Source: Isoetes taiwanensis (lineage: Eukaryota; Streptophyta; Lycopodiopsida; Isoetales; Isoetaceae). Taken from it: 64,000 bases of DNA. Position numbers and translations under genes: made by a program. Below the pieces are notes generated by a model. That model saw only the letters and a program-made list of their open reading frames with translations. It was not told the DNA's origin and did no database searches. This document shows, piece after piece, positions 3,386-54,200 of the stretch (the stretch's first letter is position 1; every line of letters starts with the position of its first letter). Location: assembly GCA_021234155.1 (NCBI GenBank), contig JAJEKV010000058.1, positions 6,086,600 through 6,150,599 on the forward strand, given 5' to 3'.

Positions 3386-5072
3386 ATGGCAAAAGTGCGA
3401 AGTATTGCCTTGTGCGCAATGATTCTTACAATACGATATGTATTTGCAGTAGACCACCATGTAGGTGGGAGTATGGGGTGGGCTAGTGGTGTCAATTACA
3501 TAGAATGGGTTGCTAATGAGACATTCGTTGTTGGAGACTCATTGAGTAAGTCTTGATTTTGTCCTTTACACTATTTTCCCCATCTCCTTTTTCTATTATT
3601 GCTATTTTATCTTTTTCTTTTTTTCCCTTTAAACTATCTATATTTGTATTGAGTTCTAAATCCTCGTATTTTTCTGTGCAACAGCTTTTGTATTTGATAA
3701 CAAACAGTACGACCTAGTTGAGGTCACAAAAAGTGGATATGAGGATTGTTATACTGATGCCACCACATACATAAGTGGTAACATGTCATTCATACTTGAA
3801 GAAGCGAAAATATATTACTACATCACCACTCTTGGGAACTTCTGCTCAACATCTCAGATGAAGCTAGCAGTCACTTCTGGTGCATTGCCATGTAAACCTA
3901 CATACATTTTCACACCATCTTCAACATCAAATACACCATCTTCAACATCAAACACATGTTCTTCTTCCACTACTATTATCCTAGCATCTATATGTGGTTT
4001 TATGCTTTTGATCCTTGTTATACTTCTAGCTTATGCCTGCATTAAATGTACGTCTAAAGAAAGGGAGGCAAATTGTTACGATTGGAATTCCAACTTTAAA
4101 TCAATAATTGTTAGGCCATTCAGCTATACTGAGCTCCATAATGCCACCAACGGATTTGACCAAGAAGAGCTTCTTGGGCAAGGTGGTTTTGGAAAGATTT
4201 ATAGAGGGCTATTGGCACATGATGAATCACATATTGCTGTCAAGGTCATGGGACAAGCTACTACACATGATAATCAACAATTCATTGCAGAAATTACGAC
4301 AATAGGACAAGTGAGGCACAAAAACTTGGTCAACTTGAGGGGTTGGTGTCGTGAGCGAGATAAATTAATCTTAGTATATGATTACATGCAAAATGGTAGC
4401 CTGGATCAATATCTATTTTCAGTGGACAAAGTCCTCCCATGGAATGACAGGTATAATATAGTGAAAGGCATAGCAGAGGGACTTGCATACTTGCATAGGG
4501 GATGTGCTCAAAACGTTGTGCACAGAGACATTAAGGCTGCAAATGTTCTTTTGGATTCTAAATTAGAGGCTCATTTAGGGGATTTTGGCTTGGCAAGATT
4601 CCTTGATGAAGCTAAAATACAACAAACCATGACTCATGTTGGCACTTGGGGATATATTGCTCCAGAATTAGCTATGTTTGGTAGAGCTACTGAAAAATCT
4701 GATGTCTTCAGCTTTGGAGTTCTATTACTCGAGGTGGCATGTGGAAGGCGTGCAATCGATGATTCTATGGCGATGGAGTCTGAAGAAAATAATTTTTTGG
4801 TCGAATGGGTTTGGAATGCTCAAGTACAGGGTAAATTGCTAGAAGTAGTTGATCCTAAGCTTACACCATACAAAAAAGAAGAGATTATATTAGTCTTGTC
4901 CTTAGGACTATTGTGCAGTCATCCAGATGCAGAACAAAGACCAACTTCTAGAAGGTGTTGCCTTATCTTAAATCAAGAAGTTCCACTACTAGAACTTCCA
5001 CATCATAAACCAAATATTAGATTGGGTTCAGTGCGCACACATGGCTTAAGACGTCTTGTAGTTCCAGTATAA
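3386..5072 (+). CDS. Phytocyanin-like receptor kinase (fusion of cupredoxin ectodomain, TM and Ser/Thr kinase)
   Basis: Exons 3386-3545 and 3685-5072 join in phase 1 (TTG A/gtaagt, acaacag/CT) and give 515 residues. Residues 1-21 look like a signal peptide. Residues 24-120 are a phytocyanin domain: HHVGGSMGWASGVNYIEW, TFVVGDSLTFVF, VEVTKSGYEDC and FCSTSQMKL. The two disulphide cysteines (C75, C107) and the axial Met (M112) are present. The usual copper His and Cys positions are replaced (NKQYDLV, ITTLGNFC), as in early-nodulin-like members that do not bind copper. A Ser/Thr/Pro linker precedes a membrane segment (about 151-171). The kinase (about 210-486) resembles L-type lectin receptor kinases and keeps GQGGFG, K240, HRDIKAAN (D335), DFG (D353) and APEL. 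No stop or frameshift was seen, so it is probably functional. Such fusions are unusual; the ligand is unknown. Confidence 0.85.
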
Positions 5073-8165: not shown

Positions 8166-10830
8166 ATGGATAAGAAAATTCTATCTTGGAATGTGAGAGG
8201 CATCAAATCCTCTCGAATAAGCGAAAGCACGCCTCGCCATGGTCGCGGAAGAATCTTAATCCGGATATCTTGTGTTTGCAGGAGCATAAATGTGCCGGGG
8301 TGATATTACCAATTTAATGAATATCTTGGGTAATCGATGCGTTATCGCTGCCGCTACAACGGGCAGGCGGGGGGGAGGTACTTTGATTTGTTGGAAAATG
8401 GGTGTACATGTAACCTTTTTCAGCCCACATAGCCGGGGCCAAGTGGGCGAAGATTAAATGGAAGGAGGGCCAGTCCGAAAGTGGGGCTTATCAATGTGTA
8501 TGCACCAATTGGGGCCACCCGAGAGAGGTTGCTTATGGGCACAATTGCGAAATAAGCTCCAATCCTTTGGGATGGGTTCTACATGGTTTGTCCCGGTGAC
8601 TTTAACATGGTGGAGCTCCCGGAGAGGACGTGCATGGTATTGGTTCAGATATTGTGCGGGGTTTTGAGCGTGACCAATGGCTTAGGTTTGTGCAGGAGTG
8701 GGGTTTGACAGAGCTTCCCGTGGATCGAATTTTACTTGGTGCAATAATTGGTCGGGGCATGGTAGGGCATACTCTAGGGCCGGATAGAGTTTATGGCACT
8801 CCAAATAGCTTGGATTATGCTCCAGCCTTCACTAGGGTGAATGTTACGCCACCTCGCCTCTGATCACACTCCCGGATCATTCACGCGGCTTCATGACCAC
8901 CGCCCTCTCAGACGGTTTTTAAGCTTAACACAAGCTTTCTTCGGATCCGAGTTCATACCGTTGTAAGCTAATTTGGCAACAGCAGATATTCGGTCGATAG
9001 CGGAATGAGTGCAATGGTTACAAAGATTGGCTAGGGTAAAACAGCTTAAAAAGAATGGGGCGGCAAAAGGCTTTGGCTCAGCGTCGCAGGTTGGATGCCT
9101 TATATGCGGAACTGGAGTCTCTTAGAGGGCGGGTCTCTGATGGCTTGCGTGAGCAGCAGGTGCTTCGTCAGATCGAGGTTGAGGAGGAGGCCAAGGTGTC
9201 GCAGGCCAGGGTCAAAGCAGGTTTGACGTGGCTGAAGCAGTCTGACACTTGCTCTAAAGTCTTTTTCCGAGCAGCCCGCCAGAAGAAGTATGCAGCAGCC
9301 ATGGCGGACATAGTTACACCCCAGGGAGTGTTGTTGCAGCAACCAGATGCTATCAAGGCCTTTGTAGCAGCGCACTATGAAACATTTTTCAAGGAGAGCC
9401 CGCTTCCCTCACAGAGTGTTTTTCAAGAGCTGGTGCTGGCCAAGGTATCGCCAAGAATCTCAGCCCTTCAAAGACAGAGCTTAGAGGAGCCGTTGACAGG
9501 GCAGGAGTTGGGGGATGCATGCCGCCTGTTGGCTCGGAATAAGTGTCCTGGATTAGATGGAATACCAGTGGAGTTTTTTCAGAAGTACTGGGAATGGGTG
9601 GGGGACTCGGTGGTGCAGGTGTATGTGGATCTTTTGGGGAATAACTCGATGCATCCTCTGCTGAATACAGGTTGTATTTCACTTATACCCAAGTGTAAGC
9701 ATCCTAAAACCATCAATGACTGGAGGCCTATTACTCTGTTGTCTGTAGTGTATAAAATCATTGCTAAGGCTTTGGCTGAGAGGCTTAAGCCAGTACTAGT
9801 TCACGCCATTAGTGCGGAAGCGATGCGGTTTTATACCACGGAACATTCTTCATAATGTGGTCTGCTTTTGAGGGAGTGCATTGGGCTCGTGGGATGAGGC
9901 AGCCCCTTGTTTTTCTTAAAATTTGGATTTTGCCAAGGCTTATGACGGTGTTAGGCGGCAGTTCTTGGCGATATGATCGTGCCTTTGGGTGCGGACCTAG
10001 TTTCGGGAAACGGTTATGAAGCTGCACGGTGCGCTAGGGCTTACAGTGTGGTGTCGGGGTGAGACCTCTTCAATCTTCTCGTGGGCGAGGCATTGGCGGG
10101 GATGTCCGCTGGCCCCCTTCCCATTCACTATAGTGGCGTAAGCTCTCTCGCAGCTTTTTCGGTGGCGATTCTTGTCGACAATGTGGTGCAAGGTCTCCGC
10201 GATGGATGATGGGTCGCAACAGTTTTGCAATCAATTTCGCGGATGATACATTCCTCTTTCTTCATGCAGATGAGTCCAATCTCCGGCAGCCCAAGAATAT
10301 TTTGGATGCCTTTTCTTTAGCTTCCAGGGTGCTTGCTTAACGGTGTCGGCGTTCTCGGCCATGTGGGTACCGGAGGAACCTCCTCCCGTGGTTGAGTCGG
10401 TTTCCACGGCTCTTACACCGCCACACACAGCTGCCAAGCTGTTAGGCATATCATTTGGCTTGGACATTAATGCTAGGGCAATTTGGGCGGAGACATTACA
10501 GAATCTTAAGCAGCATCTGAACTGGTGGAGGGGAAGTAAACTCACCATGGCTGGTAGGATTCTGATAGCCAAGTCAGTGCTCTGTAGCACTCATGTTTAC
10601 GCAGCCTCCTGCATCCTTGCGCCAGAAAGTGTGGTGAAGGAGTTGGATGACACCATTCGCAATTTTGTTTGGGGAGGAAATGAGGAGGGGGCTACAGTGA
10701 AGGTCGCATGGTGGAAGTGTGTGCGTCCCAGAAAAGCGGGGGGCTTAGGTATGCTTGATGTGTCCTTGCACACGAAGGTTCTGGTGTCGAAATTCATCTG
10801 GCAGTTGTTGCAGGAGCAACAATCCCCAGG
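8166..10830 (+). pseudogene. Alpha LINE ORF2, endonuclease and reverse transcriptase part, decayed
   Basis: Begins MDKKILSWNVRGIKSS, the APE-like endonuclease start of plant L1 ORF2, then LCLQEHK (about 8270), INVYAPIGATRERLL (about 8488) and PGDFNMVE (about 8598). From 9055 a clean stretch of 266 codons covers the linker and first RT motifs (CPGLDGIPVEFFQKYW, LNTGCISLIPKCKHP, DWRPITLLSVVYKIIAKALA). FADDTFLFL lies at 10236-10262. The region from about 9855 to 10340 carries several indels. From 10430 the thumb region reads LLGISFGLD and MAGRILIAKSVL. It ends at the CACTA insertion site; the rest resumes at 24450. Confidence 0.85.
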
Positions 10831-10833
10831 ATT

Positions 10834-10864
10834 CACTACAACAGTTTAGGGTGTTTTTCGTCGA
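10834..10864 (+). repeat. Left terminal inverted repeat of the CACTA element
   Basis: CACTACAACAGTTTAGGGTG compares with the reverse complement of the right end, CACTACAAGAGGATAGGCTT. The first eight bases are identical and the match then becomes imperfect over about 30 bp, reaching a shared CGTC. This is the diagnostic terminus of the superfamily. Confidence 0.9.
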
Positions 10865-11017
10865 GTATAACGTCAATAAAAGTGACGCTATGTGTATTCT
10901 CAAAGCCCCTCTAATTGTCACATTGTTGACGCTAAACGTGCCATACTTTGATGTCGCATGGGCGTCAACTTTTGCGTCAAGAATTGCGTCACGGCTACTT
11001 AACGCAAAAATGACATA

Positions 11018-11317
11018 ATGACTACATTAGTGGCAATTGCATGGCATGTTTCCGTCGAGCTTATATCCAAGTTACTCAATAATTGCGTCATATTTCTACC
11101 ATATTAGTCTTCACACAATGAGTACATTTGTGGCAATTGTATGGCATGTTTGTGTCAAGCTTAAATCCGTGTTATCCACTAATTGCGTCATATTTCTATC
11201 ATATCAGTCTCGACACAATGATTATATTTGTGGCAATTGCATGGCAAGTTTTTGTCGAGCTTATATCCAAGTTCTTCGATATTTGTGTCATATTTTTTAT
11301 CATATTAGTCTCGGCTA
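11018..11317 (+). repeat. Left subterminal array, three 100-bp units
   Basis: Units begin at 11018, 11118 and 11218, an exact 100-bp period. Each holds GTGGCAATTG, ATGGCATGTT-like, GTCGAGCTTATATCCA-like, TTGCGTCATATTT-like and CATATTAGTCTC-like words. Subterminal repeats are where TnpA-type proteins bind in this superfamily. The words GCGTCA and GTGTCA also recur outside the array up to the first gene and, inverted, at the right end. Confidence 0.85.
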
Positions 11318-11978
11318 TGCAACAAATTTGTTACACCATATTGGCATCCCTATTTTGCATAGGTTGACATCCTTTGCGTCATATTTGTAACTCGCTTATA
11401 ACATGTTTTATATATTCTTGTTATGCAATTATAATATGCATGATTTATTTTTACAACACGATTGTGACCTTTAGTTATATCGTTATAAGAAACTAGTTCC
11501 ATTTTTGTAATATTTGAGTGACAAAATTGTGTCAATTGTAAGTTATTTTTGTGGCATGTACATGTCAATTTTATGAGCACGTATGATAAATTGTCGAATT
11601 TGTGTCCAAATTACAAGTTGTCTTTGTGGCAATTCTACCTTAGATTTTTGTCACTTTTATCTTTTCATCCATCAATAGTTTTTTTATCTTGGACAAATCT
11701 ATATTTTAGATGCTTTTGTATTCATGTATGCAAAATTGTTTCCATTCAAGTCTATGGTTGCATCATGAGTATGAACGATGGAAGAAAAAGTGAAAAGAAG
11801 GTAATTGCACCAAGACTGATCACATCTTTGCAAGAAACAAAATTACAAAATAAAGAACATAGCTTTAATTGAAATGAAAGATCATTATGCATTTAGAGTA
11901 CTTTAACATTAAAAAGTTATTTGTGAAAATAAATCTAAAAGTTTGAGTTTAACAATCACTTTCTATCGTGCATTTTTT

Positions 11979-14900
11979 TCATTCCAGATTATCGTCCTCA
12001 GTAGGAGACGGACCTTTATCATTGGGCTCATTGCGTTCTTCGTCTTCAGTAACCTGCTCCAAAAAAGAGAACAAGAACTTAGTCAATTTTCAAATTGAGT
12101 TATTTTGCCATGCAAAAAAGAACTAAAACAGAATAAGAACACCACTTTAATCAATAGCCACATCACTGTCCTGTTTAGATATAGCAGTAGAACAAATCTA
12201 ATGGGACCATATTAATGCATATGTTTGTAGAAAAAACTACAAACATCATGGGCTGCTTACCACAACCAACAACCAAGAGATTTGATAAAATGGTATGTGG
12301 CTGGTGCCTTCTAATTTAAAGAACTGGGTATTTGGGGACACTTTGTGCCAATTTCGTAAAATAATGGGCATTTTGACAATTACATATCAATACAAGGCCA
12401 CTATTTAAAATCCCCCTTAAAAATAAGAGTACTAACCTCCTCAAAATCAAGGTAAATTGGTTGTTGTTGCTGCTTCAAGTTTCCTTTATCCTCTTGTTTT
12501 ATCTTTTTCTTGAACACAATACCAGGGCTGGGTTTCTTCACGTAATCACTGGCTTTATGCTGCAACATATGATATCATAAACAAGAACTTTGTGAGAATT
12601 GAGAAGGTTCTAATTATTAAGCTTGAAATAGATTATTTATGTCAATAAGCAGTTCAGTACAAAGGGTAAAACTATTTCAGATTAGAGCTTGCAGCCGCAG
12701 CAGTGAAGGATCAGAACAGAAACCCAAATGCCGGATATATGTTCATGTTACAACCAAAATCATGATGTAATCATATGTCAAGTTGCTTCAGCTGAGAAAA
12801 GGCAATGTATATCAGAAAACAAGGGAGTCTATATTATAGCTAGCTATAAGTCATAGTCTAGAGTGCAGCAGCCCTGTTATAATCTAAAACAGAAATGCAG
12901 ATCAAAAACATATTTAAGTTTTAACCTTATAATCATCTCTCTGCATATATCAGCAACATATCCCACAGCCCAATCTGAATCTAGAGCAAAGACCTAATCT
13001 GAATCGCCATGAGCATCTTAAATTTTGGAAGCACGTTAAGTGGAATTCCTGATCTGGTATGATCAGACTGAAATTAACATAAGCAGGCTGATGTGAAGCA
13101 GTGTGTGAAATATGATTTCTGCACCATGGAGAAACCTAGAACACGCTAGAAGATCAACATAAGCTACTGGGCATGGTGGTCTGATGTTTTTCCATAAATC
13201 TAACATTCACAAACTTTGCAGAAGATTGACTGAATCACCCATCAGGGTTTTGAAAATAGTTATAAATTTTCCAACAATGAAATAATAACTCAAATGCATA
13301 CCTTGGAAACTTCATAACCTTTCGCAATCATTTTCTTTTTCCATACTGTGTATCCACCATCATCTTTTATTTTGCGTACTAGATCATCAATTGGAAAGGT
13401 TCCCCAATCATTGAACTAGAACATAAAGAAAGTAATCAAAGTACATCCAAAGAGAAAAGGATTTGCAGATAACCATTTCATATTTAATGGGGAAAAGCAT
13501 TTTCATAAAAATATAGAAAAAAGCATAGAACTTACAAACTTGGATCTGATAGACATATCCCCGCCAGATCCAGTGCGTTGCCTCGTGACGCGCCTTGCAG
13601 CTGCATCCTTTTGCTTTTGATAGACACGACCGCATTGTTCGACAAACCTATCCCATATTTGTTTGCTCACTTTCAAGGGGCAACAGTCTTTGCCAGCTCG
13701 CACCTTGCGCTGCAAGTTGTCTCTGTATGAATCTTTTTGTTAAACACTTAACCTAAAGACTATAATTGTAAGTACAGGCAGGCTAAAAGTTATCCTGAGA
13801 ATTGCATCAAAGACGAATTCAGCACAGAAGCAGAGTCAAGAGTTAAAAGAAGAAATTAGATCAGCTGCTACTGAGAAGGTTTACAACTATTTACAACTAT
13901 TTACCCGCATGGTGAAGGAAGGTTTCTCACCAAATTCTCTAACCTATATTGCTGTACTAAAAGCCATCAACTCCTCCTTAGAACAGCTTTCGAAGTTGAG
14001 CTATCATTAGTTGGCAAATTGAGACATTTAGAGGAGAAGAGACAAAGTCATTAACAGGAAACAGGCAAGTAGATGGTTATTGTGAAAAGCAAGTTTTACA
14101 ACTATTTACCCGCATGGTGAAGGAAGGTTTCTCACCAAATGCTCTAACCTATATTGCTGTACTGAAAGCCTGCAGCTGTTTAGGGTCTTTGATTGTATGG
14201 CCACAAGAGACTTAGTGACATGGAATATGCTGCCAGCAGGATATGCCAACCATGGAAACACCAAGCGTGTCTTTAATCTATTTGCCTCACAAGGAGATTA
14301 ACGAGATTATCAATGCATAAAGGAAAATATTTACAGCAGGTTGGAGAAGCTAGGAAGAATCCAATAAATGGGCAGTTTACAAAAATGGTCATGTCATTAT
14401 CCTCAAGCATTGAGATACATCAGTGGGCTAAACTATGTAAAAAATAGAAAGGAAAAAAAAGAAACTAAACATCTTAAAAGTAATTACCTGTAATGCCTCC
14501 ATCTCTTAGCTAGTAACTTGTTGAGCTCAAATTCATTTAAGCCTTGCCCGAAATTTTCAATGATATACCTTATGGCTCTTTCTCGATGTCGAGGTTTCAC
14601 TTGCCTCCAAGTTTTATCAACCTCATGACAATACGCCTTCATTGCATTCGTGGCTTGCTCGATAAATTCCTTTCCCGCATCATCAAGAAATGGCATACCT
14701 TTGTAGAAATACACCTGTTTAAGTGCCAATGCATTAGAAACCCTGACACTTCTTTTAATTGGATCTCCTAGAGCAATTTGAAAGACACTTAATTTGTACA
14801 CGGCACGCATGCAGTTGAAACAAAGAGAAGATCAGTAGAATATTCTGTAGCTGCTTACTATTTTGCCTAAATGATCAGTAGACAGATGTACATCAAATAG

Positions 14901-17186
14901 CACGGTCAAATAGCATTCCTTGAAAACTTCTATCTTTTATCAAGTTTACAATTGCATTTTGAAAAGTTCAATCCAAGGTCATGATCTTCAAATTACTTGA
15001 TCTGACAATCCGATAGTCTAGCTTGTTTCTTTTATGAAATGTACTCAATTATATGTACTCATCTGTTGTCAGCAGAAACACGGCTGGTACTATTCTGTGG
15101 TGGAATAGAGGTTATGAGACGTCTATGAATGAGCATGCCCAATACGGATCTTCGCAGAAGTGGAGAATGAGCGAGCAGAAAGAGATTAGACAAGTATAAA
15201 TGTGCTCTTTGGATAAAGTGCGAAGCACCACAAGAACTTTGAGATGTAATTCCTCCAACTCAGTTCGTGATGATCCTTCATAAAACAAAGCATTGCTGCA
15301 ATTATAGAAATGAGCCTATGCTGATGAGAGCCAATGCCTAATATCAGTAATATTCTTCTCAAATTCACAAATTAGGCCTCTTTCAATCATCACAGAAGCA
15401 AAGCTCATATGGTCCATGCATTCCACAGTAGCACTAAGCTTGTCTTGGCTGCTTCAAGAAGTTAAATCTGCAGTACAAGAAAGTACGGAGCAAATACAGC
15501 TGTTACAAAATTGAAATAGATTAAGGACACCCTGCTGGCTGAACAGGGGCAGGGGCTTAGAGGACAGAAGGGGACAGCGGACACCCTGCTGGCTGACCTT
15601 TTCTTTGAATACAATGAAAATAAGACAAAAAGAGAAGCTATTACCTCTGACTTGGATAGTTTTTTAAATTGAACGTTATATGACAGATTGACCTCTTCTG
15701 GATAATCTTGATCCTGCTTGGACTCATTCTCGCCTTCATCAGAAGAATGAGCAGACTTAGAATCGGAGTCACTTTCCTCCTCCTCAGATGATGAGCCACT
15801 CAAAATGACATGTCTTTTGCAGACGACTGGATCTTTCTTCTTATTTGCTCGCTTCCCTTGCCTTGATGACTCTCCTGCCCCTGACATGCCTTCTGAAATG
15901 CTGCTCCTCCTACGTGCTTTTAGGAGTTTCAAACTATAAAATAACAAAAAAAGATTAATGAGCATTGAGAAAAAGCCACTGTATGACAAGCAGATAAAAG
16001 CTGAAAAGAGCATGCATTATTAAATAGTTAATGCTTCATCCATTAACAAGTATGCAATATTGCTCAAGCTTGTCATGTCTTATCTAGTCCAACTGTAAGA
16101 GGGCCTAACAGGGATGATTAAGATTATGGTACAACAGTTTCCTCTGTGCTTAGCCATTCCAGATTATATTTCCAACTCCTTGGGCAAAAGAACTAAATTG
16201 AATGATACACAATGCTTATGATCGTACACACGCACACACAGGTGCTAGCTTTAGTAGCTTGTGCTCCTTCTTTCTCCAGTTCTAAGTAACATATCTTCAA
16301 AGAAAACGGGAAGTATAAATTAGTGTCTATGACCTCCCAAGTTCTTGGACAGACACAGAAATACCAGCAGTGGCTTAAACAGATGATATCTTCAATGTCA
16401 TGCACTTGCAAGAGTAAGCACAATCTGGGATTTTCTGCTTGTTCCCATCTCAAGAAGCACTCACTCTTCGCACCTTGAGTCTAAGTCTAGAAACAAAACA
16501 GCACAAGCAGATGGATCCAATCTTGTTAACTCAAAACCATTTCTTTTATTCCGTGTATACAACTCCAATGCCAATGCTACATACTGCATTTCTGCCTTGG
16601 GGAAGTAGCAATTAAGAGATCCCATTCTCACATTCTGAACTTAAACTCTTCTAGTTCTGAAGTGAAAATGGCTCTAAAAATTGGATATATGCATGGCATT
16701 TCATTGTACTACTCTCAATAGATTAATCGAATTATCCTTTATATTTTCTCTTACTATACCATTGTAGATCATTGCAAACCATCCTCTTCACTCTCAATCT
16801 GATGTTGATGCAGCATAATGTTCCATAGCTGCGCTATATGATCATATTCTGTAGTAATTTATGCATGTAAGCATCATGCATACCTATCAGAAAGTAATAT
16901 AAAACGTTCAGAAAGATAACTGCAAATGCACCTAAGTGAGAACTCACCTGTCAACTGAATTGTCTCGTCCTTGTTCTTCACAGTTTCTAGGTTCCTTTTG
17001 CTTTATTTCAAGGCTTCTTCTTACTCGTTTCTCCATTTCATCAAAGAAATCTTGATATATTTCAGCAGGCATATTACCAAAGAAATTGGCCATTCGTTCT
17101 TCTCTAGCATGTTCGTCACTGTCATCCCCAGCCCGACTGCCAGAAGCATGGGCTTTGCCCTTTCCTTTGTCTTGTCGACCAGCCAC
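11979..17186 (-). CDS. TnpA-like CACTA protein (Ptta/En/Spm family), seven exons
   Basis: Minus-strand exons, in order: 17186-16948, 15933-15645, 14714-14488, 13722-13536, 13415-13302, 12559-12437, 12053-11979. All junctions are GT-AG and the phases agree, giving 417 residues. The start MAGRQDKGKGKAHA precedes an acidic Ser-rich stretch (SGSSSEEEESDSDS). The central part, TWRQVKPRHRERAIRYII, LLAKRWRHYRDNLQRKVRAG, PLKVSKQIWDRFVEQC, then QRTGSGGD, matches the conserved region of plant Ptta/En/Spm (PF03004-type) proteins. These bind subterminal repeats and assist the transposase. The C-terminus is Lys-rich, then acidic. The third exon's 5' border (AAACAG/GTG) has a weak polypyrimidine tract, so it is the least certain. 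The introns are long (up to about 1 kb) and one carries captured PPR sequence. Confidence 0.75.
13889..13965 (+). pseudogene. Partial duplicate of the captured PPR fragment
   Basis: About 77 bp nearly identical to 14094-14170 (one or two differences: TTCT for TGCT, ACTAAAAG for ACTGAAAG), in the same direction and in the same TnpA intron. It encodes the motif LFTRMVKEGFSPN. It then diverges into unrelated sequence, so the capture was followed by a local duplication. Confidence 0.7.
14094..14301 (+). pseudogene. Captured fragment of a pentatricopeptide-repeat (PPR) gene
   Basis: Lies antisense inside intron 3 of the TnpA-like gene. Frame from 14099 reads QLFTRMVKEGFSPNALTYIA then VLKACSCLGSL, ending at TAG 14213-14215. 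An overlapping frame from 14185 reads VFDCMATRDLVTWNMLPAGY then ANHGNTKRVFNLFASQG, ending at TAA 14299-14301. Both are standard plant PLS-type PPR motif text, parts of an organelle RNA-processing factor. The two frames show a deletion joining non-adjacent repeats. No full PPR gene lies in the window, so the source is elsewhere in the genome. Confidence 0.8.
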
Positions 17187-18057
17187 TGAAACAATGATAA
17201 CAAGAGCTTAAAATGGAAACTTTCCCACACAATTAATCGTACTCTAGGTGCAGTAGAAACTTACTGGATTCGAAGCAAGCTAAGGCGCTAGAATGGCCGG
17301 CACAGCACGAGAGGGAGGAGGTCCAATCTGAGACTGAACGAATTTTGGCACCAGGTATTTCTTTGCTAATCTTGGCAATCCATTTTTCTTTCGGTGGTTA
17401 ATAGATTCGGTAGAGAAATTGTTTCCCTCCATCAGCATAGTCGGTGGATCATTCGGTGGTATATGGTATGGTCTTTGAATGGGCTACAAAACCTTACTGC
17501 AAAATATAAACCCTAAACCTTTATAATACAAAATATGTTCGAACCATTGAATATGCACGAACCATTGGAATTTTGTGTCTTTTATAAAGTTAACATTGCT
17601 AGGGTCTTCATAAAAAAATCATTTTTCGAGGGATTTACTATTAGGGTTAAGAAGATAACTTGTCCTTGTCCATTCTAATGTTAAACCAATATCATAATTT
17701 CTTGTATTTCTAATTCCTTGTTGCATGTTGGCATTCATGCATTTCCATTGACTATGCTCGAAATGGGAATCTTGTGTTTTTTATAAAGTTAACTCTAAAC
17801 ATTGCTAGGGTCTTCTTAAAAAAACATTTTTGAGGGATTTACTAATAGGGTTAAAAAGATAAACTTGACCTTGTCCATTCTAGTCTTTGTTAAATCCCAT
17901 GTTAAACGAATAGCATTAATTTCTTACATTTCTAATTTCTTGTTGTATGTTGGCATGCATGCATTTTCATTGGTCATGTTGCTAGGCTTATATAGCATAT
18001 TGCACATTTTTAGCACATTCATGTTTTTGTTGGGGTTTTGGCAGTTATTTTCTCACT
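17187..18057. promoter_or_regulatory. Divergent intergenic region between TnpA-like and SET/Tnp2 genes
   Basis: The two gene sets face away from each other across 871 bp. It holds a tandem duplication of about 200 bp (about 17565-17760 and 17762-17975). Shared words are TTTTATAAAGTTAAC, CATTGCTAGGGTCTTC, GAGGGATTTACTA and TTGTTGxATGTTGGCAT. The copies differ by several small indels. A bidirectional promoter with duplicated protein-binding sites is the simplest reading. No TATA box was assigned with confidence, though TATAAAG occurs in both copies. Confidence 0.55.
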
Positions 18058-19410
18058 ATGGACGATAGTGGCTCCAGCAACACTAGTAGTGGAAATGCTT
18101 ATTTACCAGGCCGTGCATCCGCGTCCTCATCTTCATCATCGTCCTCGTCCTCGTCCGTTCCATCGCCCCACCGAAGACACAGAAAAAGACCTAGAAATGA
18201 CCCCGTTGAGGCATTGTACCTCAATCGTGAAAGTTGTTGGTGCAATACATGTCGTGGTAGTGCTACGCGTTCTTATCATGTTCGACAAGAACATGAGGCA
18301 AGATATGGCATGTGGCGAAACAGGCCACAACAAAGTGACGAAGAATTTCGGCTCGAGCAGCAAGCCAGCGAGGTATGCTACCAATACCCTCTCAGAAGAA
18401 AGGAAAAAGAAAGATAAACATGTGATCAATGTAACATATGATTAGATTTTGTTTAGTTGGCACATGCATTTGATTATTTCAATTCTTTGCAGTTCATTAT
18501 GTCAGGAAAAAATAGTGCACGAAAATTTATGATAGACGATGAAGAACCTAGATGTAGTTTTATCAACTCAGTAAAGAGAGCACAAAATTCTAGCATGGGG
18601 AACCTTCTTTCGCATGGCCATAGTCTCAGATCAAGTACACGTGTGTGCACTAGATCTAACACTGCAGCAATGCAAATCAAAACTCGATTTGCTACTATGG
18701 ATTTGGATCATGATAATGAGACTAGAAATGATCTTCTTATGTCAATGCCTAAAGCTTTGCTAGAAAAAATCGTGCCTTATAATCGTAAGATGCATGGATG
18801 TTTAGAAGGAAGCTTGCCCCCGATGTTACAAGAGTTTTATTACTGGGGCCGCAAGTACATGATAGCTCCATCTATTTTGAAACCCGATGCAGGAAGAAGC
18901 TTATATATAATGGAACCAGTCAATGTGCTTGAGACAAATAATTCTGTCACGTTGATGGCTTATGGAGGTCCTGCTTATGATTGGGGGACGTGGCACGAAT
19001 TGGCTTCATGGATGCCAAGCATGTCAACATATGGGATCGCATCAAACGCAGCATCATTGAGGGAGGCTGGGATTAAGTCTCGAGATGCCCGGATATATGT
19101 TGATGGGAGGCCACAATTGCATGGCAACGTTGCAGGATTGATTAACAGTTCTTGTGGCATTTATGGTGTGCTTCCTAATGCAGAATTTGTCGAAGTAGAT
19201 TGCATTGAACCGATTCCGCAATACATGGAGGGTCCTATAGTTGGAACCTATGTTGTTGTTTGTGCTACACGTAGCTTAAAACCTGGTGACGAGTTGTTAA
19301 TTCCTTATAATTGGAGGAGGCCTATTCCTCGTAGAGTTCAACGTCTTAGGAGGGGGGGTCCTGTTATGGTTCCTCGTGGAAGGCCTCATAAGAATAGAGA
19401 AAATGTGTAG
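18058..19410 (+). CDS. SET-domain protein encoded inside the CACTA element
   Basis: Exons 18058-18372 and 18493-19410 join in phase 0 (AGCGAG/gtatgc, tttgcag/TTC) and give 410 residues. Residues 1-50 are Ser-rich then basic (HRRHRKRPR). Residues 60-79 hold a C-W-C-x2-C...H...H cluster, a likely zinc module also usable by the transposase. Residues 229-379 read as a SET domain. The N-terminal strand has PDAGRSLYIMEPVNVLE and MAYGG. The core has GNVAGLINSS (for GNxxRFxNHS), C326 and PNAEFVEV. The end has CATRSLKPGDELLIPYNW with the catalytic-type Tyr377. The C-terminus PRGRPHK (399-405) is an AT-hook. SET proteins methylate protein lysines, mostly histones. The NHS histidine is Ser here, so activity needs testing. 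The gene is uninterrupted. SET is not a normal CACTA component. Confidence 0.75.
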
Positions 19411-22400
19411 TTGGTAGTAGACTTTGGAAGTTGACTTCATTTCTCTTCAACATGTTGTCTGATGTGTTGAATTGATTATTTAACAACTTAATAGTGATTG
19501 TTTTATTCTTGCTTTAAATGGACGGAATGTTGTACACTAGTGGGTGGTGTTTTATAAGGTTTTGTGATCCTACTACCTTCATTGTATTATATAATAGCAC
19601 CTAACGTTAAATTGTAACTACAAATCATGATGTTATATATTCAGTCCTCGGGTGACGAATCATTGAATGGAGAACCATCAACTTCAAACAATACTTTCAT
19701 TGGTGGGGACGTGATACATGAGACTATTACAAATTACTTTCCAGTTGGTCAACAACCAGAAGATGGTAATGGTGGAAATTGCGAGTCTGACAATGCATTC
19801 AGGGATAAGGCAGATTTTCTACACGATGAAGCTACAACCCCATTGTATCCAAATGCACGCGTGTCTCGTTTTGCGACATGTTTGCTTATTTTGAACCTTC
19901 AACATAAAGTTGGTTGGAGCAACAATAGTGTCTCTGAGCTTTTCAGGTACGTACATACAGCTTTCACAATTTGTGTTTTCTATGCACATGATTCCTAATA
20001 ACTACTAACATATGAAAATATTACTCTAGTCTACTAGGCAAAATACTACCCGACGGCCATTGTCTTCCAAAGTCAAGGAGAGAGGCAAGAGAGTTGTTTC
20101 GTTCACTGGGCCTAGAATATAATTGCATACATGCCTGCGTCAATGATTGCATATTATTTCGCAACAATTATGCGGGAGATCAAACATGTCCAAAATGTAA
20201 TGAGCCACGTTATGAGGAGGGTAGGAGGTCGAAGGTGGCAAGGAAAACATTGCGACATATGCCTATCATTCCTCGTTTACGTCATATGTTTCGATCTCCA
20301 TCCCTTGCCTCATTTATGGATTATCATGCAAAGAACCGTAGTACTGATGGAAAAATGAGGATGCCTGCAGATGGAGAGTCGTGGAAAAATATCGAAGAAA
20401 AATGGCCACAATTTAAATTGGAGTCTCGCAATATTAGACTTGGACTAGGACTCGATGGAATATGCCCCTGGGGATCTATGTCATCAAAACATAGTGTGTG
20501 GCCAATAGCTGTTGTGAACTATAATATTCCACCGTGGATGGCTACCAAACCTGGTCATATCATGTTGACGTTGATTGTTCCAGGTACTTATTTTACTTTT
20601 TACTCATAAGCTATTTATAGATATGAATTGAATGGAAATGATTTGACTTGAATTCAATGGAGAAGATGCAGTTGTTGAAGCTGTTCAAATCTATTTACCA
20701 ATAAACATGTATGCATTTTGTAGGAAAATATCAAGTTAAAAATATGGATGTCTATATGGAACCTTTGGTAGAGGAATTGGAATTGTTATGGAAGGGGATT
20801 CATATGTATGATATTTCAAGAGAGCCACATGATTTCACGTTACACGGTATGCTATGTTTCACTATTCATGACTATCCAGGCTTTTCTGTGGCATCTGGTA
20901 AGTTCTATTTACAAATGGCATGGTTTAGAAATCTTTGGATTGTTCAAAAATCATAGTAAAAATTTTGTTATTTGTAACACAACAGGTCTACAAACGAGTG
21001 GAGCATGTGGTTGTTCTTCATGTGGAACTAGCCTAACATCATATAGGTCCAGACATCTCAAGAAGCAAATATACTTTGGTCACAAGAAATATTTGCCTGA
21101 AGAGCATCATGCACGTGGACGTGAGGTGATGCCGCCACCAAAACGTTGGACAAGTAGGGATTGGTTGGATGCTTGGCAGAATGCAAACCCAGATTTGGAT
21201 TACTTGGCCAATGCCGGAGAAAGCAATACAAATCTCCCACCTGGAATGAAACGTTTATCTATATTTTATCGATTGGAGTACTGGGCAGACTTGGAAGTCG
21301 TGCATTTATTGGATCCCATGCATATATTCAAGAACATTGCACACTCTCTTTGGAGGCATCTAACTGGTGAATGGGAAACATTAGGAGCTAGAGAGGATCT
21401 TAAGGAAAGAGGAATAAGAAGAGATTTATGGCCAAATGAGAGGGCTGGCAGAGGAACCACATGGAAAAAGGGACCTTGGGTGTTAGAGAAACAACAACTT
21501 GCAACAGTGCATAAGAGAATACAAAAAAGTCGAACACCGACTGGATATGGTGCATCCCTAAGAAAAGCATTTACAAAAGATGGAGATCTTAGTGGGTTGA
21601 AAACACATGATTGGCACAAATTTCTTCAGGTAATTTATTCTTTACTTTTAATTATTGGAATTACATAGTTGCACGTATTGAACTATTGTTTGTTGTTATA
21701 GCATATTCTTCCATGCGTCATTGGAAACTATTTAACACCGGCAATAAGGAGTATCATATACCGATTAGGAAAATTCGTGAGATGGGTATCCTCAAAGGAA
21801 ATTGATGTCTCTGAGATTACAAAGATGGAGGAGGAAGCTATTTTACTTTTATGTGATATTGAAAAGGAGTTCCCTACTAGCTTCTTAGATCTACAAGTAT
21901 GATCCTTACGCCCATTTTTTTCCATGTTGACATGCATATATTTTGCTAACTAATGAGATGAGATGATGACATTGATGTAGGTGCACTTATTAATACACAT
22001 TCCAAATGAGATTAAATTAGCTGGACCTGCCCCTGCACGATGGATGTTCTTCCTCGAGCGTTATATGAAGGTGCTCAAAGGATTTGTACGCCAAATGGCT
22101 AAGCCAGAAGGGTGTATGGCCGAAGGTCATCTCATACAAGAAACTCTTTTCTTCTTGAATGATGTGACCATTGCATGCAATCCAGATGGCCTTAAAATGT
22201 GGGAGGAAAAGGAGGCGGATGAGATTATATCAGAAGTTTTACAAGGCAATGGTGTGGAGCAGAATCTGACTGATGAAATGTTTCGTTCTGTAAATGCCTT
22301 CATCATAAATAACACAACAACTTTGCAACCTTGGCGAGACATGTATGAACGTGCAAAGGAGGAAGCACAAAGGAATGGCTCACACAGACGTGGTTCAACA

Positions 22401-23524
22401 ATTGAACAAGGTGCTTTGGCAGACACCATGACCAATGATTGGTTATTAGCCCGTATGGATGAAGCAAAAGATAGTGGACAAGTCATTCCGGATGATGATT
22501 ACGAGATTGCTATTGGATGCAATAAAAAGGTATGAAATGAAAGTATTTATTTTCTTTCATCAAAAAATCATATATTGGAAAATATAATAAGTTTGGAAAA
22601 CTTGATTTTGCTAATTACACTTCTGTTATTTAGGCGCGATTTCATACATCTATGTGGGCTTACGGACAGCACTTTCGTATCAGTAATGTTGATAAACATA
22701 GAGTTACTTTTGACTCTGGAATCATGGCACACTTTGAGCAAAAGAGTCAAGCAAGCAGTAGGGATCGTAACCTTATTGATGGTGAATTATGCTATGTTGG
22801 AACCATATCCAATATCATTGAGTTAAACTATCGGACGTTTCACGTTAATGTCTTGAAAGCAAAGTGGTTCAGAGTTGTTTATAGAGGTCGTGGAAGAACA
22901 ATAAAAACACATGCTTCTGGATTTATGGAGATTGACTCCACAAAAGTGCTAGCAGATATGGATGAGCCATTTGTTTTTCCAAATCAAGTTGAGCAAGTCT
23001 TCTTTCATCCAGATCCTGACAATAATGATTGGTGGATCGTTATACATTCTCAACCTAGATCCCGTCGTGTGATTGGAAATCCTGCAATTGAAGACAACAT
23101 TGAGCCAATATCTGATGATGAAGATCGGCAACCGGAGCATATAGCAGAGGATTTCACACTAGCAATAGAAAGGGACGTTGATGTATCACACTTCGATACT
23201 ATCGAAGGCAATACTACACCTATATGGGATAATGAAGGTGCAAATGATTCATTACCTCAACCATCAGATATTAATGATGGTATAAATGAAGGAGATACTG
23301 ATTTTATTTTTCGACCTCCAATGATGAATTCTCCTCCACGAGATGAGGCTGGAAGCAGTGGGCAACTAAGTGACAATGGCATTAATGATGACTATATTGA
23401 AGACGAAGAAGTTCCAAGCATTGCTTCAGGTTTTAATTTGCGTACAAATTTGTACTTGCATTTGGATGATGATGAGTTGGACGATATTGAGCATGATATT
23501 GAAGACCACTTCAATGCTTTATGA
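18058..23524 (+). CDS. Tnp2-type CACTA transposase (Tnp2, DUF4218, DUF4216)
   Basis: Exons 18058-18372, 19645-19946, 20030-20583, 20724-20897, 20986-21629, 21702-21896, 21981-22529 and 22634-23524 join in consistent phase to 1207 residues without a stop. Residues 60-79 are the CxC..C..H..H module. The Tnp2 domain starts at TTPLYPNARVSRFATCLLIL and includes GLEYNCIHACVNDCILFR and TCPKCNEPRY. The probable catalytic acids are D348 (LGLDGICPWG), D440 (FTIHDYPGFS) and D558 (HLLDPMHIFKN). DUF4218 follows (PARWMFFLERYMKVLKGFVR), then DUF4216 (ELNYRTFHVNVLKAKWFRVV, DEPFVFPNQVEQVFFHPD) and an acidic tail. It would cut and join the element ends. The first exon is shared with the SET gene by skipping the SET exon. 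Alternatively, translation could start at the in-frame ATG ATG at 19627. Confidence 0.85.
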
Positions 23525-24417
23525 TAATTATGTTGAATATTATGTAAAAGTCTGCTCTAAATTGCTTTTCTTGTAGTTTATTTAGTTGTATAATACCTAA
23601 GAATATATATGCATATGTGTATAATTTGGGAACTTGTAAATGATAGGCTAGGAATGCTCCCAAGTCGGAAGGTGTCCCTACTTGTCTTCTTGAACTGCCC
23701 TTTTAAGACGAGATGCTTTTCATTTTCCAAAGCTTCTGCAAGATCATTCGTAGAATGCACTAATAGTTTGTGATAAGGTGTGCATAGTATGGTGTGCATT
23801 GAGGTTGAAGTCAAGGTCTAATAGGGTATGCATAGTATGATATGTCAGTCTAATTGAATACTATAAAATGTTTATTTGCAATGTTGTTTTCCTCATACTA
23901 GCTAGTGGCACATTTGTGTCAGACTTAGCCCCTTTTGCGTCAAGATGTCTATGCATTTCTAATTCAAAATGTCACTATATTGACACTTCTTTGACGCAAT
24001 CATGATACGTAAGTGCCACAATATATAATAGAAAATTGATATAAAATTGCCGATATGTCTGACACTGTAAAATGACACAAACGTTTTACAAAAGGTGACA
24101 AGACGCTATCATAAAATGTGACACAAAAGCATTACAAAATTGACTCAAAACTTTAGAACTAGCGATGTTATAGTGGACATAAACTTATTGTTATTCTTGA
24201 CTTAAATTATGTCACAATCCTTTCACAATACATGATGTAATCATCATTACAAATGCTAACGAAAAATTAATAAAATTTTGACACAAATATGTGACAAAAA
24301 TGACGTTGTTGTTGACACAACTATACTGACACAAGTATTGACGCAATCAAATTAATTTGTGTCACTTTCAAGCTTCTGACACAAATCTGACGAACCTTAA
24401 AAGGTAGTGACGCAGGG
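23525..24417. repeat. Right subterminal region of the CACTA element
   Basis: Non-coding, with the 3' end of the Tnp2 transcript at the left. From about 23905 to 24430 it holds many short copies of TGACACAAA and GACGCAA with their variants, in the orientation opposite to the GCGTCA/GTGTCA words at the left end. That is the expected symmetric layout of TnpA-type binding sites. Copies are scattered rather than arranged as a regular tandem array. Confidence 0.7.
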
Positions 24418-24448
24418 CTTGACGCAAAAAGCCTATCCTCTTGTAGTG
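24418..24448 (-). repeat. Right terminal inverted repeat of the CACTA element
   Basis: Read on the minus strand it begins CACTACAAGAGGATAGGC and continues TTTTTGCGTCAAG. It pairs with 10834-10864 and is followed directly by the ATT duplication. Confidence 0.9.
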
Positions 24449-24449
24449 A

Positions 24450-25434
24450 TTGGCTCTGTTGGCACAGTCGCTACGCCACTCTATTGTGTTTAGGAAGCCA
24501 GCAATTCCGGCTCAGTTGCCGTGGGCTCTGTTTGAGGATTTGCGGCCATTCCCTCATGCTTCGCCTTTTCTTAAAGGTCTCCTCAAGGCCTGGAAGGTGG
24601 TCAAGGTTCTCTTTTCATTGGACCCTAGCAGGTGTATGGTAGCCTCATCGCCCTTTCTTTGGGTACCCTTGGATTCTGCATCTCCCTTGGCTTCTTCCCT
24701 ACACCCAGGTACTCAGCGCCGATGGATTGCTGCAGGGGTAACATCCATCCGTGACTGGTATTGGGAGGGTCATCTGGCACCGTGGGAGTTTTTTAGGGAT
24801 CGATTTGGCCTTCGGCGCTGGGACATTCGGACTTGGGCCAGAATTGCGAATGCTATTCCATTGCAGTTGTCTTCTCAAGTCGATCGCGTTTGGAAGTCGC
24901 ATAGTGGACTTGATGCATCTCAGTTTGTAGCATCGGCTTATGGGCTTCTAGCGCCAGGGACACATTGCCGCCGGATAAGTGGTCACTTAAGCTTCCGGGG
25001 AGTAAGTGGCCCACCATGTGGAAGTGGGCGTGGAATACATTGCCTCCTCCTAAAATCCATTACCCTTCTATGGCGGATCTTGCACCGTAGCCTCGGGGTG
25101 AATGTCCGAATACACGGGTTCAAGCCTCGGTGCGGAAACATGCCCTCTATGTGGGAGGCACCGAGAGACCATTGAGCACTGCTTTGTCCTATGCACAGAG
25201 GTAGGGGCAGCTTGGTCCTGGGTGAGAGCCCTCTTTGGGTCTTCACTGTGTAGTCAGAAGCTTCTCATGGGAGTCTTTCCTAGCAGTTGGTCAGTAGCCA
25301 AGCAGCAGGTGTTCCATTTATGCAGAGCTTGGCTTCTGTGGTTGATTTGGAAAAGACGGAGAGCGAAGGTCTTCCAGAATGCAGTGCTTAGCCCTTTTCG
25401 GTTGGTTCCGATCTTGAGGCATAAGTTGTGGTAG
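24450..25434 (+). pseudogene. Alpha LINE ORF2, C-terminal part after the CACTA insertion
   Basis: Resumes in the frame left at 10830: ALLAQSLRHSIVFRKPAIPA, FEDLRPFPHASPFLKGLLKA, then WIAAGVTSIRDWYWEGHLAP. It continues to 25175 in one frame. The zf-RVT zinc-binding end is in another frame at 25102-25434 (CPLCGRHRETIEHC, WLLWLIWKRRRAKVF). The overlap of the two frames near 25110 marks a frameshift. This C-terminal text is the same family as at 308-748 and 58872-59484. Confidence 0.85.
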
Positions 25435-50583: not shown

Positions 50584-51233
50584 TTGAGACAATATAATGC
50601 ACATTATCTTGCTTTGCAAGAGTTGAAGCTCCCTAAATTTGAGGCCTCCAATCTGGGAGATTGGATCTACCTGTGGTCTTCTTCAATTTGGATTGAAGCT
50701 AATGGTACTAGGGGGGCTTGGCTATTATTTGGAAAAAAATCTGCAGCACATCTCTTCTTGCAATAGTGTTTCAAAAAATGTGGCAGTCAGACCTTTTCCT
50801 TGAATAATTCCACCATTGGAGTCATAAATGTTTATGCCTCTACTTGTCCTAAGGAGAGAGAGAAACTTTGGCCTACAATCAATTCTTGGATTTCAAACAA
50901 CTCCAACATTGATTGGATCCTTGCCGGTGATTTTAACAATACTCCTACTTGGGACATGAAGCTTGGGAATAAAATTAATATGTCTATATCTCGAGAGAAC
51001 CTTGTTGGAATAAACTTTTAGCTGATTCATCCATGATTCACATTCCATCCTCTACCTCCATTTATTCTTGGTCTAATAAGCGTAAAGGAAGGGACAGAGT
51101 TTACCGTGCTTTAGACAGATTTTATATCTCTAACCCTCACTTTCGGATCTCTGACAATTGTTATGTATCAAGTGATGATGGAACATCTATCTCGACCACC
51201 AACCCCAATTTCTTTGTACCAAGCATCCGCTAA
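50584..51233 (+). pseudogene. Beta LINE ORF2, APE-type endonuclease part
   Basis: The frame from 50584 has LALQELKLP (catalytic Glu box), then a TAG at 50764-50766. The same frame resumes with IGVINVYASTCPKEREKLWP and DWILAGDFNNTP. A frameshift near 51010 leads to SIYSWSNKRKGRDRVYRALD (51033-51233). A second, near 51170, returns to the RT frame. So the endonuclease has one nonsense and two frameshift lesions. Confidence 0.8.
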
Positions 51234-54200
51234 GTTCCCCAAGGGACATAAACATTCCTTTCAAACTCAACCGCTCTCTTCCACAATGTTTCTTTTCGCC
51301 AGGAGTTTGCTGATTTCTATTCTTCTATTGACTCAGTCTTTTTCAAATTCTTCTATGAAGAACTTTTATCATAAAATCAAAAAGGCTAAAGACTGGATCA
51401 AATCCTGGGCCAAAGATAAGCATAAAGCAAAAATTCAGGAAAAAGAGAGACTTCTGAGCAAAATGAAAGAAATTAGATCCTTGCTTCAAATTGATCCATA
51501 TAACCACAATCTTCATGTTGGAGAAGAAATTGTTGAGAATCTGATTAAAAATATAGAAGAAAGGGATGCCAGGTTCTCTGCAATTAAATGCAAAATTAAA
51601 TACAATAGTGAGATTGATCAGGGCTGCTCAAAATTTTTCTTTAGAGTGGCTAAGTGCAGGCTCCTAAAAAATTCCATCAATCAGGTTATTAACAATTATG
51701 GTACTTCTCTCAGTTCTATTCCTGATATTAAAAATTTCTTCTTTGAGAACTACTCCTCTCTGTTCAAAAAAAGTGATCTTTCTGCTACTGAAGTTGTGGA
51801 CAAAGATAAGTTCATTAGCAATCTAGACACAATCTTACCTTATCCAATTGATAATATGGATATTTCCCTTACTGCTACTCCCAATGAAGATGAGATATAT
51901 AAAACCTTGCTGAGTTTTTCCAAAGATAAGTCCCCTGGCCCAGATGGTTTTCCCCCAGAATTTTATATACAATTTTGGGATATTATGAAAAGAGATGTCA
52001 TCAGTCTTGTGCATGGATTTTGGAATTCCAATCATCTTCATCCCTCAATTTCTGCTGGTTTTATAACTCTAGTGCCTAAGGTTGACAACCCGAGCTCTTT
52101 CTCTGAATGGAGACCAATTTCTCTGACAAATTCATCTTACAAGCTATGTGCTAAAATTATTGCAAAGAGAATTCAATCTTATCTCCAAAAAAATATCAGT
52201 GTCAATCAAACTGCCTTTCTGCCTAATAGATTCATTCTGGATAATTACATCAGTGCCATGGAAGGCTTACACTTGAATGTAATTTCAAATCAATCTTGCA
52301 TCCTGTTGAAGTTGGATTTTAAAAGAGCATTTGATACAGTGAGCTGGGACTTTATTGACCTTGCTTTAAAAAAGATGGGCTTTCAGGCAAAGCTTATCTC
52401 TCTTATACATGGATTAAATTCTATGTCTAATTCTGCTGTGTTGATAAATGGTTCTCCCTCAAATTTCTTCCCTTTAGCTAAAGGTGTCAGACAGGGTTGC
52501 CCCCTAGCTCCCTATCTCTTTCTCATTGTTGCTGAAATGCTGACAAGGAGTGTGCTTCATTTGCAAAATTCGGGAGTTTTAGCTGGTCTGAAACTCCCAA
52601 ATAATTTGGATTCCCTCACAATATCTCAATATGCAGATGATACATTTGCTTTCCTGGACTCTAATACCAGAAATGTCAATACTTTCTTGGATCTTAGCAA
52701 AGAGTTCTCAGCTGCCTCTGGGGTCCATCTTAATTTGGATAAAAGTAAGATTATTGGAGATATTATCCAGCCTTCAATATGTGGCATATCTGTGCTCAAT
52801 ACCAATCAAGCCTCTAATCTCTTAGGCATGCCACTTTCTCTCAATCACAATTTAAAAGGTCTGTGGGATCCAATTCTACAAAGGATAAAGAGGAAGCTGA
52901 ATAATTATAGAAACTGTCTCTCTTTTGCAGGAAGGACAATTATTGCAAATTCTGTCCTAGCTTCTTCTCATGTCTATTTCTCCTCTGCCCTTGTTGCCCC
53001 TAAAGCAATTTATTCTGAGTTGGAGAAAGTAATCCGAAATTTCATCTGGAATGGGTCTCATCTCGTAAACTGGAACTCAATCTCTAGACCTAAAAATTTG
53101 GGAGGTCTGGGATGTAAAAATCTCCATTTACAGGCTTGTTCTCTGGCAGGTAAATATATATGGAGAACACTTATGGGGAATAATTCTCCTGCCTCCATTT
53201 TCATTGCTCATTGGCTGAATATTTCCTATCCTTCTGGTCATCCTTCTATTAAGCATTCACTCCCTGAATCTGCCTTTATTAATATTCATCCTGCTCCAAA
53301 TACTTCTCCTTTGATGAGGAATATGATTATGGCCTGGAATAAAATCCACCCTGAGCTAAAGAGAGATGATCTCCAAGATGCTACTATGAACACTAGCCTA
53401 TTTTGGTCACCTATTTTCTCTGATCCTCATTTAAAAGTTATGGCTATCAAGCATCCAAAAATTTATAGCAGATGGGCCACTAAAGGGATCACTACTATCA
53501 AGGATCTTTATAGAAATAATAATTCCTTTATTTCTTGGACTGCTTTAAAATCCGTGCTCAGAGGGACTTCCACTGATAAGAAAATGTATGTCTACTTTAA
53601 GACTATCCTAGCTACTTTCAATAATTTCAATGACTTCAATAGCTCGACTGGTTGCACTATAAATGGGAAGTTAGTCTATAAGGTAAAGGAAATTTACTCT
53701 TTGATAAATGTTGCTGATGCTCCTCTAAAAGCTATGATGAAATGGTCTTTGGATCATCCCCAAGTCCTTTCTCTTTTCAAAAATGTTTGGAACTCCTACT
53801 GCACTCCAAAAATCAGATTCTTTGTTTGGTTAATTGCACAAAAGAGCCTCACAAATTTGGTTTCTTTGTCTAGGAGAATTAATGTATCTACTGTCTGTCA
53901 CTCTGGCTGTTTTCAGAATGAGACTTTAGAGCATATCTTTCTTTGTCCCAAACTTAGACCTTTCTAGATTTGGTTCATTGATAAAACTGGCCATTACCTT
54001 AAAAAAAGGAACTTTGATGACATTATTGACTTCGTGCAACAAGGTGATATCTTTGCTAATACTCTTGTCCATACTGCCTTATGGAACATTTGGAAGTCTA
54101 GAAATAGAATCCTTTATGCCTCTAAACCTCTTTCTACTTTCTGGATTAAAATGCATTTCCAGTTAGATATTGAAGCTATTGCCACATGTCACAAGAGGAA

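Follow-up and report, generated by a model that had tools for sequence, protein, structure and literature searches.

Is the SET-domain reading frame that lies ahead of the transposase exons in a CACTA transposon of the lycophyte Isoetes taiwanensis (class Lycopodiopsida) a lasting part of the transposon, or a stray captured fragment? The locus is contained in the window, meaning the whole 64,000-nucleotide stretch that was analysed (contig JAJEKV010000058.1 of assembly GCA_021234155.1, positions 6,086,600 to 6,150,599 of the forward strand); coordinates below are those of the window unless stated otherwise. An earlier note, made from the letters of this DNA, described the frame as a SET exon carried inside an intact CACTA element and suggested that the element has its own chromatin modifier.

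Structure of the CACTA element

Positions 10834 to 24448 form one complete CACTA element of 13,615 bp with both ends present, so the description of the element as intact was right. The left terminal inverted repeat, CACTACAA (10834..10841, plus strand), also opens copies c979 and c1065b and is preceded by ATT in c909, while the right one, TTGTAGTG (24441..24448, minus strand), has an identical end in c1034, c979 and c1065b. An ATT target-site duplication is found on either side, at 10831..10833, where it was read at the homology break, and at 24449..24451. Counted in either orientation, the motif TTGYGTCA occurs 20 times in the element: 8 copies, together with 100-bp repeats, are located in the left subterminal region (10834..12000, 1.2 kb) and 12, as TTGYGTCA or TGACRCAA, in the right one (23700..24448, 0.75 kb). 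None is present in the middle of the element, and 4 are scattered over the remainder of the window. Matching 3-bp duplications were found around five SET-bearing elements, being ATT in the window, AAA in c979, AGC in c1065b, ATG in B1093 and GAA in B908; the last two carry a perfect 13-bp terminal inverted repeat, CACTACAAGAGAA. An automatic end scan returned the duplication pair in three of seven copies scanned (c979, B1093 and B908).

The transposase is encoded on the plus strand. Tnp2 exon 2 (19645..19946), in phase 0 with exon 1 and with splice signals read by eye, has no Pfam match and is kept in copies. It is followed by an exon that encodes the first portion of Transposase_21 (20030..20583, ends by eye; PF02992, 104 bits), the second part of this domain (20973..21122; PF02992, 27.9 bits at a cut-off of 28.6), DUF4218 (21981..22157; PF13960, 68 bits) and DUF4216 (22817..23041; PF13952, 39 bits). 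The window element thus combines the CACTA hallmarks of CACTA-type ends, a 3-bp duplication, Tnp2 with DUF4218 and DUF4216, and subterminal repeats on both sides. The earlier note had named Tnp2 and TnpA as the CACTA products; these domains bear out the former, and for the latter there is a candidate region. Six islands on the minus strand (12396-12580, 13261-13444, 13515-13767, 14452-14722, 15607-15961 and 16939-17521), conserved in blastn comparisons among copies of family A and containing short open stretches, have an exon-like layout and may form a second, divergent gene at the place of TnpA; two pieces of this region (approximately 12396-17521) had no Pfam match.

A LINE-like frame appears to flank the element, at 9040-10849 on the left (RVT_1, E 1.2e-4, under the cut-off) and at 24450-25175 on the right (no match). 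Since this frame lies on both sides, with the weak RVT_1 match on the left only, the CACTA element is apparently nested in an older element. The window also includes an intact kinase-domain frame (3660-5072; PK_Tyr_Ser-Thr, 168 bits), which probably belongs to a receptor-kinase gene of the host, and an unbroken frame of 950 aa (51115-53967) that by eye resembles a LINE reverse transcriptase and is possibly a young copy.

Gene organisation

Exon 1 (18058..18372, plus strand) consists of 105 codons in phase 0, ends at the donor GAG/GTATGC, and encodes an N-terminal Cys/His domain common to Tnp2 and the SET protein. The SET exon, a terminal exon, occupies exactly the interval first proposed for it (18493..19410, plus strand) behind the acceptor TTTGCAG, which ends at 18492; its frame is open over 305 codons up to the stop codon (19408-19410), and the four motifs quoted for it are all present. 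The SET domain proper, as delimited by the Pfam match, covers 18913..19311 (plus strand; residues 141-273). Joining exon 1 (105 aa) in phase 0 to the SET exon gives a predicted product of 410 aa, the length given at the outset. Two in-frame junctions, both of phase 0, are available from exon 1, one to the SET exon at 18493 and the other to Tnp2 exon 2 at 19645. The SET exon begins in phase 0 in families B, C and E as well (by eye, as were the B acceptors), in agreement with the donors of exon 1.

The first exon has no Pfam match in the window; its C-family equivalent matches PF13963 (Transpos_assoc) with an E-value of 7.5e-6 and 26.5 bits, the cut-off being 27.7. It contains a C-x-C-x2-C ... 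H motif, which is broken in the degenerate copy D1045. Exon 1 is assigned to Tnp2 because in relatives that lack the SET exon (L052-L055) it precedes Tnp2 exon 2. Being in frame with either the SET exon or Tnp2 exon 2, it indicates that the SET protein is probably an alternatively spliced sibling of the transposase. The simplest model from splice signals and phase is that the SET exon is probably an alternative terminal exon located in intron 1 of the Tnp2 gene.

The frame could instead be an independent gene residing in the intron, with a promoter and ATG of its own, and family A does have an ATG two codons into the exon. However, in families C and E coding conservation extends upstream of the first ATG, to directly behind the splice acceptor, and in one sub-family (L039, L044, L046 and L051) the exon lacks an ATG over roughly its first 30 codons, which makes an independent gene very unlikely. 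A scan of 17400-18100 for promoters of the bacterial type, a method ill-suited to plants, gave nothing above shuffled sequences.

Identity of the SET domain

A search of the window exon against Pfam-A matched a single family, SET (PF00856), with 26.8 bits over a cut-off of 22.4 and an E-value of 7e-6, in accordance with the domain assignment made from motifs. The cut-off was also exceeded by three of four further members, the fourth scoring 21.7, and by all three members of family E, and every one of 24 aligned ORFs matched SET at E<=1. Profile searches of PDB at E<=1 yielded nothing but SET proteins (13 of 13 hits, best E 0.2, and 14 of 14, best E 0.029), each hit being weak; the chains matched were MLL1/2, EZH1/2, LegAS4 and a second Legionella-type chain, otherwise named, that aligned identically. 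A phmmer search of PDB with one sequence found no SET protein and returned three antibody chains and a surface glycoprotein, and a single-sequence AlphaFold prediction of the SET protein, at pLDDT 30, gave no usable model. A chance match to SET was considered and is ruled out by the 24 of 24 members matching and by residues invariant throughout the family.

GxG and NHxC are used here as names for positions of the SET domain. The asparagine of the IN motif, which we take to be the SAM site, and the terminal tyrosine, presumably the catalytic position, are kept in all 37 sequences inspected from families A, B, C, C2 and E. One glycine of GxG is invariant across the 25 sequences of alignment A2. 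The histidine of NHxC is absent from all 37 sequences of the same five families, with serine in its place in 36 and asparagine in one. This histidine is important in several SET enzymes, but enzymes without it, such as PRDM9, can be active. LegAS4 likewise lacks it, having IN.S at the NHxC position in the alignment.

These residues bear on a reading in which the SET domain has no catalytic activity, or has its methylation target outside chromatin, such as Tnp2 or a second protein of the element, and is maintained for binding or regulation. Its support comes from the replaced histidine and from SET proteins that are inactive, for example MLL5 as presented in the accessible text of PMC5094779. 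In that text, however, the loss of SAM binding by MLL5 is ascribed to a change of the very asparagine that is kept in 37 of 37 sequences here; the tyrosine is kept equally, and LegAS4 is without the histidine too. This reading is accordingly considered somewhat unlikely, and the residue pattern suggests that the SET protein is, on balance, an active enzyme.

Recurrence in the genome

The genome searched comprises 1,658,258,908 bases in 1110 contigs. A protein search with the SET sequence of the window gave at least 135 matches at E<=1e-3, which merged into at least 124 loci. A further, more distant family, termed E, whose frames measure about 275 aa, was found by searching the genome with the Pfam SET profile; a search with one of its members produced at least 155 matches, 150 of which were typed and grouped into 137 loci, two of them common to the first set. 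The union is at least 259 related SET loci, a lower bound because the genome searches score the best candidates only. Many E loci contain stops and many are 90-96% alike, and family E is therefore read as old yet recently active. Scans of IMG/VR and GTDB with alignment A2 confirmed no relative.

Fourteen elements were read with their flanks: the window and 13 others, from families A, B, C and C2 plus the degenerate copy D1045. In all 14 the SET exon and the Tnp2 pieces share one strand, with SET ahead of Tnp2, an order also seen in the two short loci L006 and L008; in D1045 the catalytic part of Tnp2 lies 4.4 kb further on. The check proposed in the earlier note, whether several CACTA copies carry the exon at the same place, thus has a positive answer, and the single-copy case that it had named as a refutation does not hold. 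Compared with the window, SET is identical at 87-89% in open A copies, 54-55% in B, 41% in C2 and 33-34% in C. Exon 1 was detected by tblastn in 10 of the 14 elements (families A and B, and D1045) and in none of the four C and C2 elements; it was recognised by motif in C1027 and C1034, and in C1027 also by Pfam. To the right of the C-family element C1019, the flank (L028, merged positions 14260-18000) contains tandem units of about 1.1 kb.

The same arrangement was seen in the larger sets. Among the 150 Tnp2 matches listed for comparison with the first set, 49 of 124 SET loci are followed on the same strand by a Tnp2 no more than 10 kb away, the distance being 584-843 bp in 40 of these 49 pairs, and none has one upstream or on the opposite strand. 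A second list holds 139 typed Tnp2 matches out of 167, weaker ones being left out. Against it, 21 of 137 family E loci have a downstream Tnp2 on the same strand, at 947-1510 bp in 20 of the 21 pairs, with none upstream and one Tnp2 on the opposite strand; the first set gives two pairs within 10 kb, an additional downstream Tnp2 at C1031 and one about 5.8 kb upstream of C1043 on the same strand. The opposite-strand case and C1043 depart from the usual order. Taken together, a listed Tnp2 follows on the same strand in 70 of the at least 259 SET loci.

Selection and descent

The ratio of nonsynonymous to synonymous substitutions (dN/dS) was calculated by the Nei-Gojobori method for the SET core region of 31 open frames, giving 465 pairs, of which 271 are saturated or have dS beyond 2. 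The median ratio is 0.21 at dS 0.05-0.2 (19 pairs), 0.18 at dS 0.2-0.5 (25 pairs) and 0.116 at dS 0.5-1 (71 pairs); at dS 1-2, near saturation, it is 0.33 (69 pairs). The ten pairs with dS below 0.05 range from 0.26 to 1.48 where the ratio is defined; a handful of further young pairs, in which changes are few, go up to 0.95. Such high ratios of young pairs are expected after insertion, but give no support for selection. These figures describe frames chosen for openness, because the interrupted copies c979, c1065b, D1045, L006 and L008 were left out; L051, which has a frameshifted stretch, is in the set, and both it and L060 were dropped from the SET tree.

In six A pairs and three B pairs the ratio is 0.08-0.18 for the SET core against 0.03-0.11 for Tnp2; a single exception, a very young pair, has 0.47 for SET and 0.81 for Tnp2. 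The SET core is therefore mostly at 0.1-0.2, somewhat higher than Tnp2, and the comparison across copies called for in the earlier note gives the low ratios of a constrained protein. For the whole SET exon of three A copies, the ratio is 0.24-0.31 in frame compared with 0.87-2.03 in the two shifted sense frames; the antisense frames give 0.96-1.48, apart from the one lying codon for codon opposite the sense frame (0.33-0.39). Of the 200 columns of the core, 32 do not vary among the 31 frames; alignment A2, with 25 sequences, has 33 invariant columns. Purifying selection keeps the SET protein across diverged copies.

Trees of SET and of Tnp2 (FastTree, midpoint rooted) both have the topology ((A,B),C2),C. 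The test is a modest one, comparing four families with no Tnp2 from E, and the agreement fits a single old acquisition followed by common descent.

Capture of gene fragments by CACTA elements is known, as recorded in the accessible parts of PMC8978399 and PMC13317346, and the SET exon could in principle be a one-off capture of a host gene fragment of the Pack-CACTA type, carried as a neutral passenger. Pack-CACTA elements hold host fragments in few copies, the intact gene being present elsewhere in the host, and such a low copy number is not matched by at least 259 loci in diverged families, with one conserved position, dN/dS of about 0.1-0.2 and a tree in agreement with that of Tnp2. As far as the sampled loci go, these counts and the selection lead us to reject this explanation, which is scarcely credible. 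The claim that the element carries a SET protein of its own holds in the sense of a lasting, selected component, given the recurrence, the position in 14 of 14 elements and the low dN/dS.

Relatives without the SET exon

Tnp2 also occurs without the exon. In 101 of the Tnp2 matches no SET was listed nearby, and five of these loci (L052-L056) were read. L052-L055 have exon 1 joined to exon 2 across a short intron with no SET exon. In L053 (1427-1623), whose Tnp2 is 91% identical, the SET acceptor is still present in the intron together with roughly the first 14 bases of the exon, after which the sequence passes straight to the intron's end (by eye). This is a deletion scar: the SET exon was lost in the L053 lineage. 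Four Tnp2 matches of about 91% identity have no listed SET, and L053 is the one of these four that was read. No scar was seen in L052, L054 and L055. In L056 (G000:C86:51001-53180), with a 97% identical Tnp2, neither exon 1 nor SET was found within about 2 kb upstream, and its 5' part is rearranged or replaced.

Because several lineages persist without it, the SET exon is not strictly needed in cis. Several near-identical copies are found among the Tnp2 matches that have no listed SET, suggesting that lineages lacking the exon have spread as well.

Comparison with known systems

No CACTA element or other plant transposon with a SET gene was found in the literature searched, which lay outside most subscription journals and Repbase Reports. 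This agrees with the earlier note, which knew of no standard CACTA with such cargo, but the SET protein is not the first to be carried by a DNA transposon: the accessible text of PMC12730594, citing Kojima and Jurka (2014, Repbase Reports), reports SET histone methyltransferase genes carried by HarbingerS and MuDR elements of Phytophthora. Like the Isoetes CACTA, these are DNA transposons whose cargo includes a SET gene; unlike it, they belong to other superfamilies in an oomycete host, and no exon shared with the transposase is described in that text. The same source describes TET/JBP dioxygenases on fungal DNA transposons including EnSpm and Plavaka, so that enzymes of epigenetic marks occur on elements of the CACTA clade too, but these fungal enzymes differ from the SET protein in acting on DNA bases.

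CACTA (En/Spm) elements of Chenopodium, with Tnp2 and TAD, likewise combine transposase domains with gained ones (Peptidase_C48 and Transposase_24), but according to the accessible text the gained domains are in the ORF 2 region, unlike the SET exon, and SET and methyltransferase are absent as whole words from the main text (PMC8978399). In SETMAR/Metnase of primates, as far as the material available on it goes, SET is likewise joined with a transposase-derived part; unlike the CACTA SET exon, it is one host gene, domesticated and including a mariner transposase, and not mobile cargo.

VANC of VANDAL elements and TnpA of Spm are DNA-binding proteins without a SET domain. The available part of PMC10398659 presents VANC, from Arabidopsis VANDAL (MULE) elements, and TnpA as precedents for anti-silencing factors encoded by an element. 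Both are described there as opposing silencing, whereas for the CACTA SET protein such a role is a proposal (PMC10398659).

Proposed function

The following model is given a probability of roughly 45%; within it splicing, activity, recruitment and role are predictions. Splicing of exon 1 to the SET exon would produce the 410-aa protein, with the Cys/His N-terminus of Tnp2 followed by a SET domain, and skipping of the SET exon would produce Tnp2. Through the common N-terminus the SET protein may be recruited to the DNA of the element itself or to the transposase complex. There its most likely substrate would be a lysine of either a histone or a subunit of the transposase, and this methylation may allow the element to be transcribed or mobilised despite host silencing. 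It is possible, and put forward tentatively, that one CACTA gene yields both a cutter and a histone-lysine methyltransferase aimed at the same DNA, forming an old anti-silencing arm lost by sub-lineages that maybe live off SET-bearing relatives.

The opposite role has also to be weighed, in which the SET protein serves self-restraint or cloaking by placing a repressive or neutral mark on the copies of the element, limiting damage and copy number. The conserved position and low dN/dS fit this equally well, and SETMAR, a fusion of SET and transposase, is reported in the accessible text of PMC8327481 to repress the loci that it binds. On general grounds, however, selection on selfish elements usually favours mobility, and the apparent spread of SET-less lineages is cleanly predicted by neither restraint nor anti-silencing. 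Self-restraint is regarded as unlikely, and anti-silencing is retained as the preferred reading.

Significance

Plants silence transposons by means of histone and DNA marks, and the element-borne countermeasures known in plants to date, VANC and TnpA, to our knowledge act as DNA-binding proteins. SET genes in DNA transposons have a precedent in other superfamilies, and the structure and selection described here for CACTA are solid and surprising. With a domain resembling that of histone writers maintained by selection in a CACTA group with hundreds of listed loci, the writing of marks would be in the hands of the element. The common first exon points to an uncomplicated means by which a transposon could keep an enzyme tethered to it. 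The same genome offers natural controls: some related elements carry the exon, others lack it, and a deletion scar is present as well, which permits a direct comparison of chromatin, expression and copy-number history. Since the SET protein is kept by selection, CACTA elements of I. taiwanensis may influence their own silencing by the plant.
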